NCBI RefSeq assembly: GCF_001317345.1
Contig: NZ_JXCG01000001.1
Location: 62,001-126,000 of the forward strand
From: Thermococcus sp. EP1
Lineage (GTDB): Archaea > Methanobacteriota_B > Thermococci > Thermococcales > Thermococcaceae
DNA length: 64,000 nt
Reading direction: 5' to 3'
Part shown: positions 52,297-54,592 of the stretch, piece after piece
How positions within the stretch are numbered: position 1 is the first letter of the stretch
Layout of the letters: each line of letters starts with the position of its first letter
The notes under the pieces: model-generated
What the model saw: the letters and a program-made list of their open reading frames with translations, nothing else
Told to the model about the DNA's origin: nothing
Database searches by the model: none
Program-made: the position numbers and the translations under genes

Positions 52297-52929
52297 ATGG
52301 GGATATTTATAGTCCTAGAAGGCATAGATGGCGCTGGAAAATCAACACAAGCCAAAATGCTTGCAAAATGGTTTGAAGAGAGAGGATATGATGTTGTACT
52401 TACAAAAGAGCCAACTGACACAGCCTTTGGTAAGTTAATCCGACGTTTGGTATTAACAGGAGGGAAAGAGGGTATAATTGATGGTGCTAGAATAAGTAAA
52501 GAAGCTGAGGCTCTGCTTTTTGCTGCTGATAGAGCAGAGCATGTTAAAAAACTCATAGAACCTGCATTAAATGCCGGGAAAGTTGTTATTTCGGATAGAT
52601 ATTTCTACTCATCCCTTGCTTATCAATGGGCAAGAGGTCTGGACCTAAATTGGCTTATCAACTTGAATGGGTTTGCTCCACGTGCTGACCTCGTTATACT
52701 ACTAGACTTACCCGTTAAGGAGAGCATAAAGAGAATAAATGGAAGAAGCATAAGGTCTGAATTCGATAAAATCGTAGAACTACAAAAGAAAGTCAGAGAG
52801 AACTATTTGAAACTTGCAGAGAAGTTTAATGAGATAAGGATAATCAATGCCCTTGCTCCTGTAGAGGACATCCACAATGACATCACCGCCCTTGTAGAGC
52901 ACGAACTCTTTGAAAACTCAAAAGGATAA
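52297..52929 (+). CDS. tmk: Thymidylate kinase
   Basis: A 210-residue P-loop kinase: [10 protein letters not shown] (Walker A, residues 8-17), [21 protein letters not shown], and [13 protein letters not shown] with the conserved DR-x-x-x-S. It phosphorylates dTMP to dTDP for DNA synthesis. The ATG at 52297 lies behind GGAGGTGCACTC; an upstream start within the preceding gene is unlikely. It follows the degenerate mutase by 26 bases. Confidence 0.93.
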
Positions 52930-52974
52930 ACCCAAAATCCCAAACCTTTTAACTCCCTTTTCTTTAAAATAATT

Positions 52975-53033
52975 GGCCGATGACGAACGTTAGCCACTCT
53001 GATGAGATGAAGAAAAGAGGGTTAGCTGAGGCC
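52975..53033 (+). ncRNA. C/D box sRNA (2'-O-methylation guide)
   Basis: Between tmk and acdA a 59-base unit shows all parts of an archaeal C/D box sRNA. Outer GGCC (52975-52978) and GGCC (53030-53033) can pair as the terminal stem. Box C is ATGACGA (52980-52986), box D' is CTGA (52999-53002), box C' is ATGAAGA (53007-53013) and box D is CTGA (53026-53029). C and C' each differ at one base from RUGAUGA. Two 12-base guides result: 52987-52998 before D' and 53014-53025 before D. It would direct ribose methylation of rRNA or tRNA at the base paired five positions upstream of each D box. Target not identified here. Confidence 0.8.
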
Positions 53034-53230
53034 TTTCTAGATTGTGTTACTCCAACATCCCGATTCTTGTGAATTACAAGATTTCAGAAAGAAGAAGGTA
53101 ATCTGCATTCATGTCTCTTTATGCTCATCAAAGATGTATTTGTGCTTTCTTGTGCCCAAACTTGCTTAACTGCACTTTCTCGGAAAGCTTATATAGACTT
53201 TTACCGATAGGAAAGTCGGTGATTGTAAAA
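53034..53230. other. Intergenic region with acdA promoter
   Basis: About 200 bases between the C/D sRNA and acdA. A strong TATA box, GCTTATATAG at 53187-53196, lies 35 bases before the start at 53231, with GGTGATTG as ribosome site. An in-frame upstream extension to 53111 exists but crosses this promoter. No other feature seen. Confidence 0.6.
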
Positions 53231-54592
53231 ATGCTTGATTATTTCTTCACTCCAAAAAGCATAGCAGTGCTTGGAGCATCAAATGACCCACTCAAGCTCG
53301 GTTATGAGATCTTCAAGAACCTTAAGGACTATGGAGGGAAAGTATATCCCATCAATATAAAAGAAGAAACTGTTCAGGGAGTCAAAGCTTACAAGAATGT
53401 CAAAGACATTCCAGAAGACGTTGATTTAGCAGTTATAGTTGTTCCAAGGAGATTCGTCAAGCAAGCACTCATTGATTGCGGCGAGAAAGGTGTTAAAGGA
53501 GCCATCATAATTACGGCCGGTTTTGGAGAAATGGGTGAAGAGGGTAAAAGAGAAGAAAGAGAACTTGTAGAGATAGCACACAAATATGGAATGAGAATAA
53601 TTGGGCCCAACTGTGTCGGTGTAATGGACACTCACAGCAACATGAACGCCACATTTATCATGAAGGCAAAAAAAGGAAGTGTGGCCTTTGTTTCCCAGAG
53701 TGGTGCTTTAGGAGCTGGAATAGTCTACAAGACTATTAAAGAAGATATTGGGTTCTCAAAGTTTATAAGCGTTGGAAATATGGCTGACGTTGATTTCGCA
53801 GATTTGATGGAATATTTAGCCGAAGATAATAATAGTAAGGCAATAGCCCTTTATATCGAAGGAATAAAGAATGGAAAACGGTTTATGGAGATAGCAAAGA
53901 AGGTAAGTAAAAAGAAACCAATAATAGCCTTAAAAGCTGGAAAAAGTGAAAGTGGAGCAAGAGCAGCGTCTTCCCACACTGGTTCACTTGCAGGAAGTTA
54001 TGCTATCTACGAGGCTGCCTTTACCCAGAGCGGAGTTCTCGTAGCTGAAACCATAGATGACCTACTTAGTATGGCAAGGGCCTTTACTCAGCCTCTACCA
54101 AAGGGTAAGAAAGTAGCAATAATGACCAACGCTGGTGGTCCTGGAGTCCTAACTGCTGATCAGCTCGATAAACGTGGACTTAAGCTGGCCAATTTGAAAG
54201 AAGAAACAATGGAAAAGCTTAGGGAATTTTTACCCCCAATGGCAGCTGTTAAAAATCCCGTTGACATGATAGCAAGTGCAAGAGGAGAAGATTATTATAA
54301 AACAGCCAAACTTCTTTTAGAAGATGAGAATGTCGATATGCTCGTGGCAATTTGTGTTGTTCCAACTTTTGCTGGAATGACCCCCACAGAACATGCAGAA
54401 GGCATAGTAAGAGCTGTAAAAGAAGTCAACAATGGAAAACCTGTTTTAGCACTCTTTATGGCTGGATACGTTAGTGAGAAAGCCAAAGAACTCCTAGAAA
54501 AGGAGGGTATTCCAGCATATGAAAGACCAGAAGATGTTGGTTCCGCAGCATATGCTTTAGCTGCCTTTGCAGAGAGAAATTTGGAGGTGTAA
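53231..54592 (+). CDS. acdA: Acyl-CoA synthetase (ADP-forming) alpha subunit
   Basis: A 453-residue alpha subunit of ADP-forming acetyl/acyl-CoA synthetase. It has the CoA-binding domain (SIAVLGASNDPLKLGYE), the two succinyl-CoA-ligase-like domains (GPNCVGVMD; VSQSGALGAGI) and the phosphorylated histidine, about H249, in ASSHTGSLAG. It turns acyl-CoA, ADP and phosphate into acid, CoA and ATP together with a beta subunit, which is not in this window. Being first in the operon with iorA and iorB, it matches the isoenzyme II alpha gene of Pyrococcus, which handles aryl-acetyl-CoA. The start at 53231 fits the TATA box. Confidence 0.92.
   Translation: MLDYFFTPKSIAVLGASNDPLKLGYEIFKNLKDYGGKVYPINIKEETVQGVKAYKNVKDIPEDVDLAVIVVPRRFVKQALIDCGEKGVKGAIIITAGFGEMGEEGKREERELVEIAHKYGMRIIGPNCVGVMDTHSNMNATFIMKAKKGSVAFVSQSGALGAGIVYKTIKEDIGFSKFISVGNMADVDFADLMEYLAEDNNSKAIALYIEGIKNGKRFMEIAKKVSKKKPIIALKAGKSESGARAASSHTGSLAGSYAIYEAAFTQSGVLVAETIDDLLSMARAFTQPLPKGKKVAIMTNAGGPGVLTADQLDKRGLKLANLKEETMEKLREFLPPMAAVKNPVDMIASARGEDYYKTAKLLLEDENVDMLVAICVVPTFAGMTPTEHAEGIVRAVKEVNNGKPVLALFMAGYVSEKAKELLEKEGIPAYERPEDVGSAAYALAAFAERNLEV

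Follow-up and report, generated by a model that had tools for sequence, protein, structure and literature searches.

An sR34 C/D box guide RNA gene between tmk and acdA of Thermococcus sp. EP1 and its predicted target in 23S rRNA

Does the gap between tmk and acdA in Thermococcus sp. EP1 hold an RNA gene, and if so, which nucleotide would its product mark? A sequence-only reading of the window (the whole 64-kb stretch of DNA analyzed here) had proposed a hidden C/D box sRNA at this place, and the flanking genes are the ones it named. tmk encodes a dTMP kinase (TIGR00041, 191.1 bits against a cut-off of 83.25) and acdA the alpha subunit of acetate--CoA ligase (TIGR02717, 570.2 bits against a cut-off of 567.15). 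The intergenic gap is bounded by the tmk stop at 52929 and by position 53231, the likely start of acdA and the point at which the acdA family profile sets in. In the mechanical list of open reading frames, a minus-strand frame of 64 aa (52803-52997) extends into the sRNA and the acdA frame opens at 53111, 40 codons ahead of the likely start; we do not take either as evidence for a gene within the gap.

Searching the whole window with cmscan and Rfam 15 revealed a single match above a gathering score, to RF01273 (sR34), which spans positions 1-54 of the 54-position model (69.7 bits, E 5e-11, gathering score 40). A regular expression for the box and guide layout likewise found one site across both strands of the window, whereas 200 mononucleotide shuffles averaged 0.0. 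Because that expression was composed with the site already known, the Rfam match is the independent test. A permissive Rfam scan of 52900-53300 gave 12 matches, and the 11 to families other than RF01273 all fell below the gathering score (10 C/D families annotated in archaea and one Caenorhabditis C/D family). The Pyrococcus C/D families snoPyro_CD (RF00095), sR1 (RF01152) and sR18 (RF01141) share the box layout but have other guides, and score 33.5, 30.2 and 23.8 of 45 bits, respectively, below the gathering score.

In full, 52975-53033 reads GGCCG-AUGACGA-ACGUUAGCCACU-CUGA-UGAG-AUGAAGA-AAAGAGGGUUAG-CUGA-GGCC. As expected of archaeal C/D sRNAs, the C, D', C' and D boxes come in that sequence, each guide is about 12 nt long (here both are 12 nt), and a GGCC/GGCC terminal stem closes the C/D kink-turn. 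These elements lie exactly where the sequence-only reading had placed them (Table 1); C and C' each carry one substitution relative to RUGAUGA, as it had claimed, and its choice of C' box is upheld by the RF01273 family alignment. In that alignment, this sRNA also shows the two guide cores of the consensus, CGUUAGCCAC and AAGAGGGUUAG. The locus shares with sR34 a full-length match and the same boxes and guide cores, while differing in a D'-C' spacing that is two bases longer and in a D box of CUGA where the Rfam consensus has CCGA.

Table 1 Features of the sR34 locus in window coordinates
Feature	Position	Strand	Evidence or remark
sR34 C/D box guide RNA gene	52975-53033	+	Rfam RF01273, 69.7 bits, matched at 52976-53031
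Promoter-like block AAACCTTTTAACTCCCTTTTCTTTAAAAT	52942-52970	+	Kept in all 13 aligned g1 loci, EP1 among them
Terminal stem, 5' arm GGCC	52975-52978	+	Pairing preserved despite changes in relatives
C box AUGACGA	52980-52986	+	
D' guide ACGUUAGCCACU, core CGUUAGCCAC	52987-52998	+	Core identical in 63/63 loci
D' box CUGA	52999-53002	+	
Spacer UGAG	53003-53006	+	
C' box AUGAAGA	53007-53013	+	
D guide AAAGAGGGUUAG	53014-53025	+	10 bp with 23S 2022-2031; C2025 predicted to be methylated
D box CUGA	53026-53029	+	
Terminal stem, 3' arm GGCC	53030-53033	+	Pairing preserved in relatives

The locus is an ordinary member of the known sR34 family, and the gene is already catalogued. The RNA gene that had been proposed is therefore real, but it is not hidden to RNA annotation, since Rfam detects it directly. 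Judged from its sequence, it very probably encodes an archaeal C/D box methylation guide, with 23S C2025 as its predicted mark. In Pyrococcus, 46 sRNAs were found, with Northern verification in P. abyssi (Gaspin et al. 2000, as cited by PMC7994747). An archaeal sR34 did not appear by name in the literature searched, where the sole match was an unrelated fungal paper, and the plasmid collection gave no match.

Conservation and gene neighborhood

Of 115 genomes of the phylum, 92 carry RF01273 above cut-off, and all 92 belong to one family (f1); none of 14 control genomes carries it. Two listed genomes of this family are without a match, G031 (77% complete) and G074 (73%), as are 18 listed genomes from other families; three further match-less genomes of the 115 are absent from the listing. 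To the 62 primary loci from the 91 other positive genomes, which came with 8 secondary matches, we added the EP1 locus to give a set of 63. The D' core CGTTAGCCAC is identical in all 63 primary loci, across six genera, and the D core AAGAGGGTTA in 61, with L093 and L094 deviating. The box expression parsed 67 of 70 loci, and L079, L086 and L094 were judged by eye. Among 62 parsed loci the C box is ATGACGA in 40 and ATGATGA in 18, while the D box is CCGA in 32, CTGA in 29 and CGGA in one. A lack of box conservation in related genomes had been named as part of what would refute the gene; boxes and guides are instead kept in six genera.

The end stem was examined in 62 of the 63 loci (L093 was not parsed), which contain 30 distinct pairs of five-base ends. 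Counted outward from the boxes, positions 1-5 are paired in 30, 29, 29, 23 and 14 of the 30, and shuffling the partners equals this pairing in 0, 1, 32, 22 and 264 of 2000 trials. The total was reached by 0 of 2000 shuffles, a count that is not a probability because the sequences are related. Both C-G and G-C occur among relatives at positions 1 and 2, and G-C, G-U, U-A and A-U all occur at position 3. The stem is weak in L081 and L083-L085.

Across 13 aligned loci of genus g1, which include the EP1 locus, the upstream segment AAACCTTTTAAC...TTCTTTAAAA is nearly constant, whereas the tmk end and the gap after the gene drift. The T/A core of AAACCTTTTAAC lies ~26 bases ahead of 52975, in agreement with the archaeal TATA spacing in T. 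kodakarensis as quoted by PMC4247193. By that quoted spacing, AAACCTTTTAAC may be a BRE/TATA-like element, and sR34 appears to have its own promoter. The gene would then yield a short transcript, probably initiated just past tmk.

In genus g1, all 12 fetched loci have tmk upstream on the same strand, and 11 of them have acdA downstream; the twelfth (L017) is truncated by the contig end. L018, at a contig start, was counted as having tmk upstream; the script rule for centered loci had labeled it downstream. Elsewhere, tmk is upstream in 7 of 7 g5 loci, 1 of 3 g2 loci and 14 of 31 g4 loci, but it is convergent on the opposite strand in 2 of 3 g2 loci and the single g6 locus, and no tmk lies within ~1.5 kb in 8 of 8 g3 and 17 of 31 g4 loci. 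Because some members of the family have no tmk nearby or have it on the opposite strand, sR34 is not tied to it. The position of the EP1 locus directly between two same-strand genes could invite another reading, in which the boxes are a chance arrangement in the gap or serve only to bind L7Ae in the leader or tail of an mRNA, and PMC4247193 does caution that some predicted sRNAs could be cis elements. This reading is contradicted by the family match and the guide conservation, by those g3 and g4 loci that stand away from tmk, and by the three g2 and g6 loci with tmk on the other strand; we consider it scarcely credible. Across g2 and g6 (L079-L082), sR34 follows an opposite-strand tmk in 3 of 4 loci, as if inverted in place.

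A second, related C/D-like RNA was seen in L073-L078, L102 and L103 (~1501-1555), with AACGUCAGCACG as its D' guide and about GAAGGGACUUGG as its D guide. It matches sR34 more weakly and occurs in 25 genomes (6 of 13 in g1, and 19 in g4), but not in the EP1 genome. When four of its loci were scanned, two passed RF01273 and two matched no Rfam family, and the rRNA search revealed no clear target for it; it may deserve a family of its own. Separately, L180 (1188-1223, minus strand) carries an sR34 pattern match on a contig labeled Thermoplasmata. Sample 356-284 is the source of both L180 and the Thermococcus match L166, and the L180 contig is probably mis-sorted.

The D guide and helix 69

We located the 16S and 23S rRNAs of the EP1 genome, taken from one stretch, and searched them for partners of both guides. 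Such a search had been proposed for 52987-52998 and 53014-53025; it gave a clear 23S target for the latter and none that convinces for the former. The D guide forms 10 contiguous Watson-Crick pairs with 23S 2022-2031 (UAACCCUCUU), including the +5 base: its fifth base before the D box pairs with C2025. Archaeal C/D sRNAs characteristically have a D guide that is complementary to a stable RNA and whose +5 base is in a Watson-Crick pair; 7 of 2000 shuffled D guides gave 10 consecutive pairs that include the +5 base in either 16S or 23S rRNA. All 10 genomes compared preserve guide and site, and in G025 and G027 the pairing extends to 11 pairs. Against this reading, D guide base 1 is unpaired at the 23S site, as is base 12 in most genomes, which limits the duplex to 10 bp rather than 12.

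SRP RNA offers a competing partner. The D guide pairs with the genome's own SRP RNA at 168-180 (L135 1668-1680) over 12 of 13 bases, with a mismatch, a figure that includes one G-U pair and the first D-box base. This raises the question of whether the guide acts on SRP RNA (at about base 173) in place of, or besides, 23S rRNA. However, the SRP site varies while the guide stays constant: there is at least one mismatch in each of 12 genomes, and the +5 base is other than C in 3 of the 12. The predicted duplex is also less stable than that with 23S rRNA (-12.5 vs -15.2 kcal/mol). We rejected SRP RNA as the main D-guide target because its +5 base and the middle of its site vary, and consider any action on it improbable. 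In several relatives the D guide pairs with SRP RNA over at least 9 bases, and the mismatch is constant.

Returning to the 23S site, C2025 aligns to base 1921 of the E. coli MG1655 rrlA copy (2905 nt). The U residues known as pseudouridines 1911, 1915 and 1917 likewise sit one position higher in that copy. Because of this shared shift, we read C2025 as E. coli C1920 in conventional numbering, an equivalence we make only tentatively.

By analogy with its class, sR34 would fold to join C and D in a kink-turn and C' and D' in a kink-loop, and the folded RNA would bind L7Ae, Nop5 and fibrillarin. By the D+5 rule, the D guide would then position fibrillarin on 23S C2025, which is predicted to lie in the 3' strand of helix 69 at the subunit interface. 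Both this assembly and the D+5 rule are described as established for C/D RNAs in PMC7994747 and PMC4644070. According to PMC4644070, helix 69 is a predicted 2'-O-methylation hotspot in hyperthermophilic archaea; the same source counts helices 68, 69 and 71 as archaeal methylation hotspots, with many predicted sites near A1912.

The constant D' guide

The best rRNA partner of the D' guide is 23S 2297-2304 (8 bp, predicted mark G2299), and 417 of 2000 shuffled guides do equally well. Its run length is 10 in G025 and G027, 9 in G026, 8 in EP1, G095, G099 and G038, 7 in G034 and G107, and 6 in G023. This fall from 10 to 6 across 10 genomes indicates that the rRNA changed and the D' guide did not. 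Given its 8 bp, the shuffles and the spread of 6-10 bp, 23S 2297-2304 is not a convincing D' target; the guide may still add a second contact there, with G2299 as the predicted mark. Two other rRNA candidates are a 16S site at base 676, with 8 of 10 bases paired and inner mismatches, and a site in the rRNA leader at base 417 of the 800 upstream of 16S, where 9 pairs (including one G-U) are followed by one mismatch and two further pairs.

Under a relaxed rule based on PMC4644070, which asks for 9 or more pairs with a Watson-Crick pair at +5 and allows one mismatch and two G-U, the genome's own 43 tRNA genes, 5S, SRP and RNase P RNA yielded one D' match only, to L126. This tRNA has an intron and carries CAT in the anticodon position, and ARAGORN does not call it. 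It was rejected as a D' target since 3 of 12 genomes retain the pairing and the other 9 disrupt it.

Could the sRNA be a true C/D guide whose D' guide recognizes a conserved target of its own other than rRNA or tRNA, or keeps the free RNA closed by pairing with the D guide? The D' core is constant throughout although its best 23S partner drops from 10 bp (G025, G027) to 6 bp (G023). The minimum-free-energy fold of free sR34 joins the D' guide to the D guide, at -16.7 kcal/mol and z -2.84; folds this stable arise in 3 of 200 shuffles. The same guide-guide pairing is drawn in the Rfam structure line of RF01273. That the two guides close on each other in the free RNA counts against the methylation-guide reading. 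On the other hand, covariation cannot test guide-guide pairing because both guides are nearly constant. The search for a separate target also speaks against this alternative. The D' target 10-mer GTGGCTAACG has 3 exact copies in the EP1 genome, one of them sR34 itself. With G-U disallowed, 10 genomes gave 23 exact matches, of which 10 are sR34, compared with 14 for a reversed-pattern control in the same genomes. Among the 13 others, only L151 and L155, from two genomes of one genus, share a coding context, and across genera no conserved context besides sR34 was found in these genomes. We regard this alternative as unlikely, if worth keeping in view. Doubtful, too, is the suggestion that the D' guide is kept for a job other than rRNA methylation, for example another RNA target or pairing with the D guide until helix 69 displaces it. 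Since PMC4644070 describes other archaeal sRNAs with an empty D' guide, the D' result is compatible with membership in the C/D class, and a C/D guide directed at 23S C2025 remains our preferred reading.

The predicted mark in context

The equivalent nucleotide is also methylated elsewhere. TlyA, the bacterial 23S C1920 2'-O-methyltransferase, makes the same mark as that predicted here (PMC12805891); it differs in being a stand-alone protein enzyme, whereas the sR34 site would be chosen by a guide RNA. According to the same paper, some TlyA enzymes modify C1920 only, and the mark lies on helix 69. In Arabidopsis chloroplasts the equivalent Cm1935 was found methylated by RiboMeth-seq, and it had not been found modified in the other rRNAs listed in that source (PMC8053127).

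For this locus, the question of a hidden gene is settled: the RNA gene was already catalogued, and what has been gained is a concrete predicted mark. The constant D' guide, with no settled target, is a small, testable puzzle. Of modest interest is the predicted helix 69 mark itself, which would mean that a nucleotide methylated in bacteria and in Arabidopsis chloroplasts is reached by a guide RNA in Thermococcales.
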